Positions 24,130 through 51,844 of a stretch of DNA of 64,000 nucleotides are shown in pieces. Numbering within the stretch: position 1 is the first letter of the stretch; each line of letters opens with the position of its first letter. A program made the translations under genes and the position numbers. The DNA lies in assembly GCA_000687975.1 (NCBI GenBank), contig JIAB01000001.1:372001-436000 (forward strand). The letters are read 5' to 3'. The notes below the pieces were generated by a model. The model worked only from the letters and a program-made list of their open reading frames with translations, was not told where the DNA came from and ran no database searches. This DNA comes from Lachnospiraceae bacterium AC2031 (GTDB taxonomy: Bacteria; Bacillota; Clostridia; Lachnospirales; Lachnospiraceae).

Positions 24130-25359
24130 ATGTCAAATATAGGAATAATTGCTGAATATAATCCGTTTCATAATGGCCATAAATATTTGGTAAAGAATGC
24201 CGTCAAAGAGACTGGAGCAGACGGTGTTATAGCACTGATGAGCGGCAACTTTATACAACAGGGCGCACCTGCCATGGCCGATAAATACACCCGAGCTGAA
24301 GCAGCCGTTCGTGGCGGCGTCGACATAGTCTTCGAACTCCCTGTTATATATGCAACTGCCAGTGCCAGAGACTTTGCTAACGGAGCAGTTGCTATGCTCT
24401 CTTCGATGAAGAATGTGGAATATATAGCATTTGGCGTGGAAGATATGGAACAGAATATGTTCTTTGAAATAGCTGATATTTTAGCAAAGGAGCCAAAGGA
24501 GTATAAGTCATTATTAAACGAGTACCTGTCGAAAGGTAACTCCTATCCAGCAGCAAGTGAGAAAGCCATTAAGAAGATTCTAGGAAATAGTGTTGGTAGC
24601 GTAATTTCAAGACCTAACAATATCTTAGGAATCTCTTATCTTAGCGCACTTATAAAGCAAAAAAGCCATTTACAGCCTATCATGATTGAAAGATGCGACA
24701 GTGGCTATAACTCAGCCGAACTCACAGGCAACTACGCAAGTGCAACTGCAATAAGAAATGCAATCATGAATAACACCTCTATAAGACCGTATATTCCAAA
24801 GGTGTGCGTCAAGCCTTACGAGGAATACTTTTCAAAACCACTGGCCGATATTACCTGGCTTACACCTTTTATAGCATCGAGACTTATATATGACAGAAAC
24901 CTCCCTCACGAGATTTCTGATCTGGAATCCGTTATGGATATGACTGAGGAAATCCTTAACAGACTAAGGAAGGCTCCTCTTCCTATAAAATATATAGAAC
25001 TGGCGGACTTCCTAAAAACCAAGAACATCACCATGAGCCGAGTAAGCCGTATGCTTCTTCATATGGTTCTGGGAATAAAAACTGTAGATAGAGAACTCGC
25101 TTATAACAATGGATACTCCAAGTATATTAATCTACTTGCATTCAATGGAAGTAAATCTTCTATGCTGAAGAGCATTGCTGAAAACACAAGACTTTCAATG
25201 ATAAACAAGAAGTCCAGTTATAAGCCTGAATCCGAACTGGGACAGCGAATGTGGGAAATGGATAAACTGGCAACAGACCTATATAACCAGCTTATCTACG
25301 ACAACCTGAACATGCGACTTCACGGAGAACTCACCTGCTCAGTTCGTAAAGTAAACTAA
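24130..25359 (+). CDS. tmcAL: tRNA(Met) cytidine acetate ligase TmcAL
   Basis: TmcAL makes N4-acetylcytidine at the wobble position of elongator tRNA(Met) using acetate and ATP. From the ATG at 24130 (GGGGGTG upstream) the protein is 409 aa; an upstream ATG at 24115 overlaps the ribosome binding site and is less likely. The nucleotidyltransferase motif GIIAEYNPFHNGHKYLV lies at the N-terminus, followed by MSGNFIQQGAPAMADK and ASATAIRNAI. It is divergent from recA and ends at a bidirectional terminator. The family was formerly annotated as a hypothetical nucleotidyltransferase (YlbM). Confidence 0.92.
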   Translation: MSNIGIIAEYNPFHNGHKYLVKNAVKETGADGVIALMSGNFIQQGAPAMADKYTRAEAAVRGGVDIVFELPVIYATASARDFANGAVAMLSSMKNVEYIAFGVEDMEQNMFFEIADILAKEPKEYKSLLNEYLSKGNSYPAASEKAIKKILGNSVGSVISRPNNILGISYLSALIKQKSHLQPIMIERCDSGYNSAELTGNYASATAIRNAIMNNTSIRPYIPKVCVKPYEEYFSKPLADITWLTPFIASRLIYDRNLPHEISDLESVMDMTEEILNRLRKAPLPIKYIELADFLKTKNITMSRVSRMLLHMVLGIKTVDRELAYNNGYSKYINLLAFNGSKSSMLKSIAENTRLSMINKKSSYKPESELGQRMWEMDKLATDLYNQLIYDNLNMRLHGELTCSVRKVN

Positions 25360-25362
25360 AGC

Positions 25363-25391
25363 CTGCCAGCGGGGACGGTTCTCAGTGGCAG
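25363..25391 (+). repeat. GGGGACGG-type repeat, copy C
   Basis: CTGCCA and TGGCAG arms enclose GCGGGGACGGTTCTCAG. It lies directly after the tmcAL stop codon. The core GCGGGGACGGTTCTC and the adjoining TGGCAGATAA recur at 51066-51093 on the other strand. Confidence 0.7.
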
Positions 25392-25393
25392 AT

Positions 25394-25426
25394 AAAAAAA
25401 AGACCAACCATCGGTTGGTCTTTTCT
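25394..25426. terminator. Bidirectional terminator between tmcAL and the coiled-coil gene
   Basis: AGACCAACC-ATC-GGTTGGTCT perfect 9-bp stem, with A-run on the left and TTTTCTT on the right. It serves two convergent genes. Confidence 0.9.
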
Positions 25427-27345: not shown

Positions 27346-28902
27346 TTAGTCATCTGTACTAATCTGATTCTTTAGCCACTTGCCTGCATCGCTTAGATCA
27401 TCATCTGACCAGCCAGATGTCTTTGAACATCCAGAGTCAATAAGTGCTGATGTTTCATTCTTATTACAAAGGCTCCAACCAGCATATGAAAGATTATATT
27501 CATCGATCATATCAAACCAGTCTTCAGCAGAATCATAATCTATTGCTCCATTTCCTGATGCATCACATATACTGAACTCTGAAATAAAAACGCAAAGTCC
27601 TTTATCATGAGCTGTCTTAACCTTGCTTCTGATATTATCTTTATGTGTTGCCGCATAGAAATGAGTTGTATAAGCTATATTATCCTGTCCTGTAATAGGA
27701 TCATCCGCAGCCTGATCAACATCCTGAGACCATGTAGGTGTACCTACTATTATGATAGCATCCTTATCATTAGCTCTGATTACAGGAATGACTGTTTCAG
27801 CGTACTCCTTAATATCAGACCAGGTTGTGCTTCCATTTGGTTCGTTACATATCTCATATAATACATTATCGTAATCTGCATACTTTGCTGACATCTCATC
27901 AAAGAACACTACAGCCTCATCCTGATTGTCCTTTGGATTGGTATCATGAAGAATATGCCAGTCAATGATCACATACATTCCAAGTTCTGTAGCATACTCA
28001 ACACCATCCTCAACAAGTCCCTTAAGCTTGGACTTATCACCGTCCTGGCAATAACCACCAGACTCTGATGTATACATAGCAAGTCTTATAACATTTGCAC
28101 CCCACTCATCGCGAAGAGTCTGGAATGCTTCTTTATTAACATATTCAGGGAACCAGGCAAGACCATGAGTGCTTACACCCTTAAGCTGATACTGCTTACC
28201 ATCCTTATCTACCACATCAGTTCCATCGATAGAAAGCTTACCATGATTCTCAAGAGGTGTACCTGATTCAGGCTCAATCTTCTCCTTCTTGGATTCAGCC
28301 TTCTCCTCAGCTGACTGAGTTGTAGGCTCTTCTTTAAGCTCTGTATATTCCTCGCCGCCAACATAAAGTGTCGCAGCCTTCTCTGCATCATTACTGCTCT
28401 TATACTTCACCTGAAGACCCATCTCTATATTACCACCCTTAGGGATAGTTCCATTATAATCAACCGCAGTAATTGTAAGATTATCGCCTGATATCTTATA
28501 ATCACCATTCCAGTTGTCGCCTATCTCGCCACCCTTAAATCCTGCGATAACAACCTTCCAGTCTGAAACATCTTCCTTAGACTTATTATCAATCCTGATA
28601 TTATACTGATAAACATACTTATCGCCGTCCTGCCAGTTACCAGCATCTTCTACCTTAACAGAACAAGCCAGCTTTTTTTCATCACTGTTTGTAGACGAAG
28701 CCTTCTCAGTGGTTTCTTCAGTATCATCCTCAGCTACCTCTTCTTCAGTTGCAGCCTCAGTTGTAGCCTGAGTAGTTGTCTCAACTGCCTTACTTCCAGC
28801 ATCATCTTTGTTACCTAGCGTATACACGATAAATATCGCCATAGCGACAATGGGAACAGCCATAACACCAATAATGATTAGTAACGATTTTCTCTCTTTC
28901 AA
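27346..28902 (-). CDS. Membrane-anchored GH5 endoglucanase with CBM2-like domain
   Basis: The protein is 518 aa from a TTG at 28902, which has AGGAG 9 bp upstream. The frame stays open to 29013, but that part lies in a foldback element. Residues ~6-29 form an N-terminal membrane helix (signal anchor). A Thr/Glu-rich linker follows (~35-75). Residues ~75-170 resemble a CBM2-type cellulose-binding domain (WQDGDKYVYQYNIRI, DNWNGDYKI). The GH5 domain (~215-510) has the acid/base Glu354 in YEICNEPNG and the nucleophile Glu442 in VFISEFS. It is expected to cleave beta-1,4-glucans outside the cell. The gene splits recG from rsmD, which are usually neighbours, so it looks like an insertion. Confidence 0.9.
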   Translation of the reverse strand: MKERKSLLIIIGVMAVPIVAMAIFIVYTLGNKDDAGSKAVETTTQATTEAATEEEVAEDDTEETTEKASSTNSDEKKLACSVKVEDAGNWQDGDKYVYQYNIRIDNKSKEDVSDWKVVIAGFKGGEIGDNWNGDYKISGDNLTITAVDYNGTIPKGGNIEMGLQVKYKSSNDAEKAATLYVGGEEYTELKEEPTTQSAEEKAESKKEKIEPESGTPLENHGKLSIDGTDVVDKDGKQYQLKGVSTHGLAWFPEYVNKEAFQTLRDEWGANVIRLAMYTSESGGYCQDGDKSKLKGLVEDGVEYATELGMYVIIDWHILHDTNPKDNQDEAVVFFDEMSAKYADYDNVLYEICNEPNGSTTWSDIKEYAETVIPVIRANDKDAIIIVGTPTWSQDVDQAADDPITGQDNIAYTTHFYAATHKDNIRSKVKTAHDKGLCVFISEFSICDASGNGAIDYDSAEDWFDMIDEYNLSYAGWSLCNKNETSALIDSGCSKTSGWSDDDLSDAGKWLKNQISTDD

Positions 28903-28934
28903 CTTAGTTCTCTCCTGTAGTATATTATTTAACC

Positions 28935-29190
28935 TCGAATTATATGATTTGCATACAGCTGAATCACGCAAGCAATTTTCTAAATATTTCGAGCAACCTT
29001 CTATAAACTGCATTATCGCTCGGCTAAAACTCGTAAAAATGCCTTTTATAAGAGATTCAGACCGAAGGTCAGTAGAAGGATGGCATTTTTACTCAGACAA
29101 AACCGCTCGCGATGCAGTTTATGAAGCTTGCTCTTTATATTTTACGAAAATTGTGCTATCGATTCATCTATATGCAAATCAATAATTCGA
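28935..29190. repeat. 256-bp foldback element between recG and the GH5 gene
   Basis: The two halves match as inverted repeats from the ends inward: TCGAATTA.. at 28935 and ..TAATTCGA ending 29190, then TGATTTGCATA, TGAATC, CAATTTTC, GAGCAA, CTTC, ATAAACTGCAT and AAAAATGCC blocks in the same order in both arms. The tip contains GACC-TTC-GGTC near 29069-29081. Only short internal loops interrupt the pairing. The element ends one base before the recG stop codon. It has no coding potential. It could be a foldback MITE-like element or a very long RNA hairpin acting after recG. Confidence 0.85.
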
Positions 29191-29191
29191 A

Positions 29192-31162
29192 TCAAATATC
29201 ATCTATGATGAGCGATAGATCCTGTGCTAGGCGAAGCATATCCGCATGCTTATAGATATCAGCGATACGGAAGTTCAGATCACCGCTCTGACGAATACCA
29301 AAGAAGTCTCCAGGGCCACGAAGGCGAAGGTCCTCTGATGCGATAAAGAATCCATCATTGGATTCCTCCAATACTTTAAGCCGCTCCATAGACTCTTCGG
29401 TTTTCTTTACATTTATAAAGATACAATAACTTTGTAGTGAGCCTCTGCCCACACGTCCCCTCAGCTGATGAAGCTGAGCCAGACCAAAGCGTTCTGCATT
29501 CTCTATCATCATTACGGTTGCATTTGGATTGTTGATACCAACCTCAATGACCGTAGTAGATACTAACACATCTATATCTCTTTTGACAAAGTTTTCTAAT
29601 ATTTCATGTTTTTCGGATTCCTTCATCTTTCCATGAAGGTAGGATACTCGCACTCCGGAGCCAAGTTTTTCTTGAAGATCCTCGCTGTAGTTAATAACAT
29701 TTTCTGCGTCAACCGTTTCACTTTCCTCAACCATAGGACAGATAACATAGACCTGTTCACCCGCTCCCACACGTTCTCTTAAAAACTTATAGGCGGCAGG
29801 TCTGTAGTCCGTTCCTACAACACAGTTGTATATGCTCTTACGGTCTGCAGGCATATCCTTAATTACAGAAATATCCATATCCGCATATAGAATGATAGCC
29901 AAGGTTCTAGGAATAGGAGTTGCACTCATAATAAGAATGTTTGGCATGTCGCCCTTCTCTGCAAGCTTTTCTCTTTGCTTAACTCCAAAGCGATGCTGCT
30001 CATCTGTTATAACAAGCCCTAACTCTTTAAACTCCGTAGCATCCTGTATGATGGCATGGGTACCTATAACTATATCGCAGATGCCATCTTTAAGCTCCTG
30101 GTAAACTGTACGTTTATCTTTTGCTGTCATGGATCCAGTCAAAAGACGAACAGTAATCTTATATGGCTTCAGCATCTTGGAGATATCCTCATAATGCTGC
30201 ATGGCAAGCACTTCAGTAGGCACCATAAGCGCACCCTGATAACCGGAAATGGCATTCATAAGCAGAGCTATTACTGCAACCACTGTCTTACCCGATCCAA
30301 CATCTCCCTGAATAAGACGACTCATCATGTAGTCAGATTCAAGATCACGTGTTATATCCTCTACAGCCGCTTTCTGTCCTTCAGTTAAAGAGAACGGAAG
30401 TCCCGCGATAAATCCATCACGTTTCACTTTTGCCTCATCATTTATTTTATGATGATTGCTTTCTACTACCGTCTTTTCCTTAAGCTTTCTTACATTGATA
30501 AGAAACTCCAGGAATTCATCAAGGGCAATTCTTTTTATCGCATCTTTAAGCCCCTCTTCATCATCAGGGAAATGGATACGCATTATAGCCTCGCCGCGGC
30601 GCATAAGCCCATACTGTTCTATTATATCTTCCGGAAGATAATCATGCAGAGTCAGAACAGTATCACGCAGTTGTTCTATAGCTCTGGTAATAGAATTATT
30701 TGTTATACCACTCTTTAATGGATATATAGGACGAAGGGTACTGAGCATCTTCTGATAATTAAACTGAGTGAAGAACTCAGGCATCTCCATAACCCTCATA
30801 GGCCCTTTGATTTTTATAGTGCCATAGAAAATATATGATTCGCCCTTATGAAACTGGGATTTAAGATATGGTTTGTTGAACCAGACCATTCGGAGACTAC
30901 CGGTGGAGTCTGACGCAGAAAGGGAGGTAATATTATATCTCCTGCCTCTTCTTTCTTCAACGTAGGATACCACCTTGCAAAAAACAGCAACCCTGTCTCC
31001 TTCACTAACTTCAGCGACAGAGACAGGCTCACTGTATTTCTTATAAGACCTTGGGTAATAGGTGATTAGGTCACCCACAGTGGAGATTCCGAGTCGTCCA
31101 AACTGCTGTGCTGTCTTCTCACCTATTCCTTTTATATTTTGTATATTATCTTCTAATCTCAT
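29192..31162 (-). CDS. recG: ATP-dependent DNA helicase RecG
   Basis: RecG remodels stalled replication forks and branched DNA. The 656-aa length is near normal. The N-terminal wedge/OB domain (residues ~1-220; PRSYKKYSEPVSVAEV) precedes the helicase core: Walker A GDVGSGKTVVA, DEQHRFG (motif II), SATPIPRTLA, and VMMIENAERFGLAQLHQLRGR with GRGS (motif VI). It starts 5 bp after the YloV-like gene and is thus in the same operon. Its stop codon abuts the foldback element. Confidence 0.96.
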   Translation of the reverse strand: MRLEDNIQNIKGIGEKTAQQFGRLGISTVGDLITYYPRSYKKYSEPVSVAEVSEGDRVAVFCKVVSYVEERRGRRYNITSLSASDSTGSLRMVWFNKPYLKSQFHKGESYIFYGTIKIKGPMRVMEMPEFFTQFNYQKMLSTLRPIYPLKSGITNNSITRAIEQLRDTVLTLHDYLPEDIIEQYGLMRRGEAIMRIHFPDDEEGLKDAIKRIALDEFLEFLINVRKLKEKTVVESNHHKINDEAKVKRDGFIAGLPFSLTEGQKAAVEDITRDLESDYMMSRLIQGDVGSGKTVVAVIALLMNAISGYQGALMVPTEVLAMQHYEDISKMLKPYKITVRLLTGSMTAKDKRTVYQELKDGICDIVIGTHAIIQDATEFKELGLVITDEQHRFGVKQREKLAEKGDMPNILIMSATPIPRTLAIILYADMDISVIKDMPADRKSIYNCVVGTDYRPAAYKFLRERVGAGEQVYVICPMVEESETVDAENVINYSEDLQEKLGSGVRVSYLHGKMKESEKHEILENFVKRDIDVLVSTTVIEVGINNPNATVMMIENAERFGLAQLHQLRGRVGRGSLQSYCIFINVKKTEESMERLKVLEESNDGFFIASEDLRLRGPGDFFGIRQSGDLNFRIADIYKHADMLRLAQDLSLIIDDI

Positions 31163-51029: not shown

Positions 51030-51060
51030 AAGGCGTGTCACTTAGTTAGTGACACGCCTT
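51030..51060. terminator. Bidirectional terminator between the beta-lactamase-like gene and tpiA
   Basis: AAGGCGTGTCACT and AGTGACACGCCTT form a perfect 13-bp stem around TAGTT, with AT-rich flanks on both sides. Confidence 0.85.
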
Positions 51061-51065
51061 ATTAT

Positions 51066-51093
51066 CTGCCAGGGAGAACCGTCCCCGCCGGCC
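51066..51093 (-). repeat. GGGGACGG-type repeat, copy D
   Basis: Read on the minus strand it is GGCCGGCGGGGACGGTTCTC then CCTGGCAG. It shares GCGGGGACGGTTCTC and TGGCAGATAA with copy C at 25363-25391. It lies directly after the tpiA stop codon. Confidence 0.7.
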
Positions 51094-51097
51094 TTTT

Positions 51098-51844
51098 TTA
51101 GTAGTTAACGATCTTACCGAAGTCAGCCTTGAGTGAAGCTCCACCAACAAGACCACCATCGATATCAGGCTGTGCAAAGAGCTCAGCTGCGTTACCAGCG
51201 TTAACTGATCCACCGTACTGAATACGTACAGCATCAGCTGTAGCTGCATCATAGATCTCAGCGATGCAATCTCTGATTCCCTTACATACTTCCTGAGCCT
51301 GCTCAGTTGTAGCAGTCTTACCAGTACCGATAGCCCAGATTGGCTCGTAAGCGATAACCATGTTCTTTACATCATCAGCTGCAACGCCCTGAAGGTCTGA
51401 CTTAATCTGAAGTCTGATCCAATCCATTGTTACGCCCATCTCTCTCTGCTCTAAGCTCTCGCCACAGCAAAGGATTGGTGTAAGACCAGCTTCGATAGCC
51501 TTCTTAACCTTCTTATTAAGTGTGCAGTCACACTCCTTGAAGTAATCTCTTCTCTCTGAGTGACCGATGATGACATACTTAACGCCTGCATCTACAAGCA
51601 TCTCTGCTGAAATCTCACCTGTGTAAGCACCCTTATCTTCGAAGTACATATTCTCAGCACCAACTTCTACGTTAGTACCCTTTACAGCCTCAACAACAGG
51701 AACGATGTCGATAGCTGGAACACAGTAAACTACATCTACTGCATCATTTACTACAAGGTCCTTCAGCTCTGCAACAAGTGCTACAGCCTGTGAAGGAGTC
51801 ATATTCATCTTCCAGTTTCCTGCAATAATCTTCTTTCTTGCCAT
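51098..51844 (-). CDS. tpiA: Triosephosphate isomerase
   Basis: TpiA interconverts dihydroxyacetone phosphate and glyceraldehyde-3-phosphate. The 248-aa protein has the substrate Lys in GNWKMNMT, the catalytic His in [12 protein letters not shown] and the catalytic Glu in [15 protein letters not shown], plus the C-terminal phosphate loop [10 protein letters not shown]. It starts 13 bp after pgk, so the two are co-transcribed. Confidence 0.98.

Follow-up and report, generated by a model that had tools for sequence, protein, structure and literature searches.

A family of dispersed intergenic hairpins with conserved cores and copy-specific arms, one of them behind recG in a Lachnospiraceae genome

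What is the 256-bp imperfect palindrome that lies directly behind recG in Lachnospiraceae bacterium AC2031? The window analyzed here is a stretch of 64,000 nucleotides from this genome (G000, the own genome), with position 1 at C1:372001, and the palindrome occupies positions 28935-29190 (Table 1). A sequence-only reading of the window had described an inverted repeat at this place, starting one base past the recG stop codon, and both points held: position 29191 is the sole base in between. RNA folding of both strands, which it had proposed, showed that each folds far better than shuffled sequences. On the minus strand, which is the sense of recG, 28925-29200 folded at -109.2 kcal/mol, whereas shuffled sequences averaged -57.7 (z -11.3), and none of 200 shuffles was equally good. 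The plus strand reached -94 (z -9.95). As single-stranded DNA, 28935-29190 gave -62.4 (z -10.2) on the minus strand and -54.1 (z -8.2) on the plus strand. Thus the recG-sense strand folds better under RNA and DNA parameters alike, and the comparison of these folds with shuffles rules out a chance origin of the palindrome.

Table 1. Positions of the hairpin element, its parts and its neighbors in the window, and of family B elements (coordinates with C1 refer to the own genome).
Feature	Position	Strand	Basis or remark
Family A hairpin element, whole palindrome	28935..29190	- (sense = minus)	Folds, second own-genome copy, covariance-model match
Conserved core	28959..29168 (G000 C1:400959-401168)	-	Covariance model R1, 194.9 bits (window copy is among the 15 used to build R1)
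Copy-specific outer arm, 5' on sense strand, adjoins recG stop	29169..29190	-	Pairs with 28935-28958
Copy-specific outer arm, 3' on sense strand	28935..28958	-	Pairs with 29169-29190
Variable tip hairpin	29033..29092	-	GTAAAAATGCC stem; GACC-TTC-GGTC within loop
recG	29192..31162	-	Neighbor directly upstream on sense strand; RecG_wedge, DEAD, Helicase_C, RecG_dom3_C
GH5 cellulase with CBM2	27346..28902	-	Neighbor, next gene downstream; start codon position provisional
Family B, own genome	C1:147928-148007, 363058-363124, 1308218-1308312, 2176488-2176542		
Family B loci	L083, L084, L087, L246, L268-L275		

The palindrome belongs to a repeat family, which we call family A. A second copy, with 77% identity over 224 nt, lies at C1:2305784-2306004 of the own genome (one 3.19-Mb contig). 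When the own genome and 60 relatives were searched at the nucleotide level, seven genomes gave matches, all of the same genus. Fifteen copies were aligned in the minus-strand orientation (alignment A1), and a covariance model (R1) was built from them. With stricter filters, R1 was applied to 61 genomes of a single Lachnospiraceae genus, many of them incomplete, and matched 56 places in 15 of them; one of the 15 (G064) is counted on a 31-bit, 73-nt match only. Conservation solely behind recG, which the sequence-only reading had linked to an RNA, was not found: 52 of the 56 places lie elsewhere, and the own genome carries its second copy. Across 397 genomes drawn from the Lachnospiraceae, R1 found the own genome and one weak match of 32 bits in another genus (G164), in an insensitive survey that scored six candidates per genome. 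This match (L100, 2001-2142) has the short 6-nt tip and partly complementary arms and is perhaps a distant relative. The 56 elements in the genus and this one make up the 57 analyzed below.

More widely, 84,980 species, each represented by one genome, were scanned for a motif, which gave 48 stretches. R1 confirmed 14 of them, from eight assemblies that are all titled Lachnospiraceae or Eubacterium, including LC2019 and another titled roe deer rumen. Among the 34 unconfirmed stretches one is titled Lachnospiraceae and the rest come from many phyla. Viral contigs gave four motif stretches, none of which was confirmed by R1. At the gathering threshold, no Rfam family matched the element in the window and 20 loci, and thus a catalogued Rfam family was rejected as its identity; the matches elsewhere in these sequences were a tmRNA, tRNAs and two riboswitches, and a lax threshold added one CRISPR-repeat match (E 4.7). 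No published description of family A appeared in the parts of the mostly open-access literature that we searched.

Two other identities were also rejected. A 125-aa plus-strand ORF runs across the window element and is taken as spurious, and a stop codon occurs in every one of the six frames in 46 of the 57 cores, so family A is not a coding sequence. The window copy has no G+C-rich stem followed by a T run, and therefore it is not an intrinsic terminator; the sole terminator match in 28700-29400 is at 28834-28849, outside the element.

Folding of the window strands and of the copies gave one long stem-loop for the whole element. The core is mostly 153-214 nt long (seven are shorter, truncated or cut off), and with arms most copies measure about 200-310 bp. 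The GACC-TTC-GGTC tip noticed earlier is present in the window copy. Tip length differs among copies: where both flanking motifs were found, in 51 copies out of 57, it is 6, 12, 38-44 or 56-66 nt. Motifs conserved at unpaired core positions include TGT..GA and CGAGTT. Conservation of 90% or more holds for 27 of the 85 unpaired columns and for 25 of the 101 paired ones in a set of 49 rows (five short, cut or weak rows were left out and three identical rows not repeated). As we read the alignment, tandem G.A pairs could arise between the unpaired stretches CGAG/CGAG and YGAG/CGAG.

The suspicion that pairing is preserved by compensatory changes was borne out by a clearly positive covariation test. 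Both partners have changed in 39 of the 51 pairs of A1. The alignment scored 0.523 for covariation, compared with 0.186 for shuffles and at most 0.120 for slid structures, and none of 500 shuffles reached it; four of five covariation measures beat every shuffle and the fifth (further pair types) was reached by 81 of 500, with shuffles that take no account of relatedness and a structure derived from the same rows.

The ends of the element behave differently from the core. Complementarity of the 22-nt arms averaged 0.82 within a copy (54 copies, minimum 0.50; L131, L100 and L092 left out) versus 0.43 when arms were swapped between sites (1,890 swaps), and it was at least 0.8 in 32 of the 54 copies versus 8 of the 1,890 swaps. 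The left arms of these 54 copies fell into 34 groups, and no conserved terminal inverted repeat is common to the copies. Arms are common only within a site, or among the G071 and G067 copies and among the G029 copies; the arms of the window copy differ in sequence from those of the second own-genome copy. Runs of A/T are present in the arms of L101. The ends are the most variable part and hence do not define the boundary of the element. At sites S2, S6 and S7 the arms are 0.56-0.66 identical between related species and the cores 0.92-0.97. The DNA adjoining the arms has diverged to about the same extent at S2 (0.49) and S6 (0.68-0.70), and at S7 the near flanks are 0.78-0.85 and the far flanks 0.87-0.96 identical. 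Therefore, only S7 shows arms clearly changing faster than their surroundings.

Elements are also inverted in place. Ten sites are occupied in at least two species, and six of them (S1, S2, S3, S5, S6, S7) hold both orientations. At S1, S2, S5, S6 and S7, closely related species have conserved flanks around an element that is 0.92-0.98 identical and turned around. At S1, the site behind recG, the flanks of G033 and G066 are 0.96/0.95 identical, and the element is 0.98 identical when inverted and 0.88 when compared directly. S3 is a weaker case (0.81 inverted versus 0.76 direct).

The recG site itself holds the element in G000, G033 and G083, and G066 has it there inverted. By the C-terminal part of recG the nearest genomes are G032 (97%) and G070 (94%), and neither has an element at this site; about 45 nt separate recG from the next gene in G032, where an unrelated 7-bp palindrome spans the stop codon, and about 14 nt in G070. 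R1 found no element at the recG end in 18 further genomes. The copies at other places and the relatives without an element behind recG rule out a unique recG-linked feature. The earlier suggestion that the recG transcript contains a very large RNA hairpin was weakened by the same comparison, as only 4 of the 56 genus places lie behind recG, the two genomes closest by recG have none there, and a closely related species has it inverted at this site. Scored by a longest-ORF rule, codirectional neighbors run with the sense strand at 23 of the 57 elements and against it at 18, and the neighbors are convergent at nine, divergent at three and undecided at four. Since orientation is not tied to neighboring genes, a cis-acting 3'-UTR RNA is unlikely, and a cis-acting RNA in the recG 3'-UTR is disfavored. 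The window element, located between recG and the cellulase gene, probably has no dedicated role for recG.

How old are these copies? G071 (LC2019) carries eight copies at eight places with near-identical cores and common arms, which reflect either recent dispersal or gene conversion. G083 carries ten copies and G015 four. In a tree of 52 cores, in which fifteen inner branches are poorly supported, the elements of G033, G066, G083 and G011 mostly cluster by site, so they are inherited and most copies are old. Outside this clade, 9 of 26 copies (L100 and L092 left out) sit at sites that the clade uses. Some of these are related to the clade's copy at the shared site (S3 in G015, S5 in G075), and others belong to another subfamily (S1 in G000; S4 and S9 in G071; S5 in G067; S2 in G015). 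This may reflect reuse of sites or homogenization of copies within a genome. One intergenic region of G066 (L112) contains two opposite family A elements, at 2001-2155 and 2220-2372, 64 bp apart, and the matching site in G033 (L123) contains one full and one truncated copy.

Copies of family A are dispersed in intergenic DNA, their fold covaries, their arms are site-specific yet complementary, and elements are inverted at the same site. With moderate confidence, we read these as non-coding, MITE-like mobile hairpins spread by a trans-acting enzyme on a folded single strand, with arms and flips produced by template switching. A putative enzyme would act in trans on the folded strand in the minus-strand sense of the window, and the fold and the loop motifs may be conserved because they are what this enzyme recognizes. 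After insertion, template switching of DNA polymerase between the arms would keep drifting arms complementary and would occasionally invert the sequence between them. Dispersal and the G071 copies argue for mobility, and the arm changes and flips for template switching. According to the available parts of two studies, template switching causes both arm homogenization and spacer inversion (PMC8604942) and maintains hairpins by multi-base compensatory changes (PMC8794818). Judging from our comparisons of arms and orientations, the arms of family A were probably homogenized, and the core flipped, by template switching during replication.

The sequence-only reading had also offered a foldback mobile element. 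The dispersed copies, eight of them near-identical in one genome, support it. The comparison of filled and empty sites revealed neither target-site duplications nor a clean boundary of insertion. In this comparison, G067 has a remnant of a neighboring repeat at the L088 site, and G014 has 12 nt at the L087 site. Together with recG in G032 and G070, these sites include no clean filled/empty pair; no target-site duplication was found at them, and they gave no clean answer as to whether arms derive from the target. Moreover, no copy with a large insert or cargo was present among 34 motif matches, which cover 34 of the 56 places. The old age of most copies, inferred from their clustering by site, also speaks against the mobile reading, as does gene conversion as an alternative source of the G071 copies. 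The chief gap in this reading is that no mobilizing enzyme was found, nor, at the sites compared, a clean insertion boundary.

A second hairpin family, family B, was found beside A. Its conserved core (CCCCTAGCGG ... GAATCGCTAAGCGCCGAGACC) differs in sequence from that of A and is more widespread, with matches in 34 of the 61 genus genomes, eight of these matches being in the own genome. Like A, family B combines a conserved core with a variable tip and copy-specific complementary arms, which most of the eight folded B loci show. Beside the same gene in G000 (L269) and G033 (L268), the B elements have different arms, each self-complementary. Several G071 copies of A adjoin a B hairpin module. 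S2 holds A in G000, G015, G033 and G083 and holds B in G070, with flanks 94%/79% identical to G000; S3 holds A in G011, G033 and G015 and B in G000, with flanks 94%/86% identical to G033. It is conceivable, though we would not bet on it, that A and B belong to a class of interchangeable hairpin cassettes competing for shared intergenic slots. These would grow locus-specific complementary arms rewritten by template switching and would flip freely, the conserved unit being a fold with its loop motifs and not terminal repeats. Shape, and not its ends, would then define such a mobile element. This is made less likely by S2 and S6, where arms and adjoining DNA have diverged to a similar degree.

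In LC2019, left of a family A element (L086), five small near-perfect hairpins stand in a row inside the family B loop, and the run looks modular. In G070 (L246, ~2490-2580), a ~30-nt unit (CGATGTCGAGTGAGTGCATACTCGCACAAG) is repeated three times in tandem at the edge of a B element. In G067 (L264, about 905-1230), a ~22-nt tandem array (ATACTTCGTTCGATGGTTTAAC-like) occupies the place where LC2019 has a B-A composite.

Could the fold be conserved because the transcript is functional? Family A would then be a structured non-coding RNA family, multicopy, acting in trans or located in 3'-UTRs. The strong covariation together with the conserved unpaired motifs fits such an RNA, and so does the position of the window copy, in recG sense and one base past the stop codon. 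The sense strand is the more stable one in 52 of 56 copies, by a mean of 9.3 kcal/mol over all 56, although the copies share ancestry and thus are not 56 independent cases. By parsimony on the tree of 52 cores, Watson-Crick pairs changed to GU 42 times, to AC 17 times and to other mismatches 60 times; without one pair, GU versus AC is 30 versus 17, and in the outer arms it is 47 versus 36. Furthermore, a G-U pair is kept in 45 of 54 rows. These biases, which count for the mobile hairpin as well, suggest that one strand is the folded form, whether as RNA or as single-stranded DNA. In single-stranded DNA, too, GU and G.A are the more stable mismatches, and therefore the strand bias is no proof of RNA. 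Against a functional transcript are the varying orientation relative to neighboring genes, the patchy presence (15 of 61 genomes, many incomplete), the lack of an element behind recG in G032 and G070, and the lack of an Rfam match. No promoter-like site lies inside the window copy, and the one found outside is no more than expected by chance. We consider a functional RNA rather unlikely.

Selection on the fold is not required for covariation, since template switching alone can yield it. The copies might thus be passive old palindromes that were dispersed long ago, are kept foldable by template switching alone and are no longer mobile. In the available parts of PMC8604942 and PMC8794818, template switching gives complementary multi-base changes and spacer inversions without selection, and the divergent arms beside conserved cores at S2, S6 and S7 are in line with this. 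However, the eight near-identical G071 copies with common arms are hard to explain without recent spread or gene conversion, and asymmetric unpaired motifs persist (the 27 of 85 columns above), which homogenization alone should erase. We consider purely passive palindromes improbable.

REPINs carry REP ends with GTAG/GTGG tags, and since the ends of family A are not conserved, no common tag of this type is expected. It is highly improbable that a RAYT (Y1) transposase moves family A, as a REPIN-like element, in the form of folded single-stranded DNA: REPINs are inverted doublets that fold and show compensatory hairpin changes (PMC3116915, in the part available) and Y1 matches occur in 11 of the 15 A-positive genus genomes, but such matches also occur in 25 of 46 genomes without A, are absent from the A-carrying G083, G015, G025 and G067 (assemblies 78-91% complete), and among the matches listed come no nearer to an A element than about 43 kb (G066). 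An association with RAYT is thus unsupported, with four A-carrying genomes lacking a Y1 match and none adjoining A among the matches listed.

Mobile hairpins of the kind we favor would differ from the systems described so far in the sources available to us. As excerpts of PMC3116915 describe them, REPINs resemble family A in being inverted, folding and extragenic, with compensatory changes and a proposed single-strand intermediate; unlike A they have conserved ends and a less conserved spacer and form clusters beside RAYT genes, whereas in A the ends vary, the inside is conserved, and none of the Y1 matches listed lies nearby. ERIC/IRU, Correia/NEMIS, RUP and RPE are likewise small non-coding repeats dispersed in intergenic DNA whose transcripts would fold into long stem-loops, and Correia has length variants (107/155) as A does (PMC2229807, in part). 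In the same portion of that review, their terminal inverted repeats measure 4-24 bp, and several of the families show TA ends together with target duplications. In contrast, conservation in A is confined to the inside, and the outermost 20-30 bp vary between sites. A is also larger, at the length with arms given above (about 200-310 bp), and shows repeated in-place inversion between related species, a difference that is set against the review's description only. In hairpins maintained by template switching, arms also change in concert and the spacer inverts (PMC8604942, PMC8794818, available parts). Those hairpins lie in yeast coding genes and RNA genes, whereas in family A the process would have acted repeatedly on the members of one dispersed repeat family.

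Covarying pairs in a hairpin are commonly taken as a sign of functional RNA. Family A combines strong covariation with in-place inversions and concerted arm change, and this combination can be produced by replication template switching without RNA function. Family A is thus a natural test case for telling the two kinds of covariation apart, and as a repeat family without an Rfam match it could confuse screens for non-coding RNAs in such genomes. If recognition of a single-strand hairpin drives its spread, it would be a mobile element with freely varying ends, unlike MITEs with terminal repeats as the consulted part of PMC2229807 describes them.

The window also contains an inverted pair of 44-nt stretches, 25355-25398 and 51059-51102, which are 82% complementary and contain GGGGACGGTTCTC/GAGAACCGTCCCC. 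This pair is perhaps a third short dispersed repeat, which we presume could be linked to Y1 transposases.
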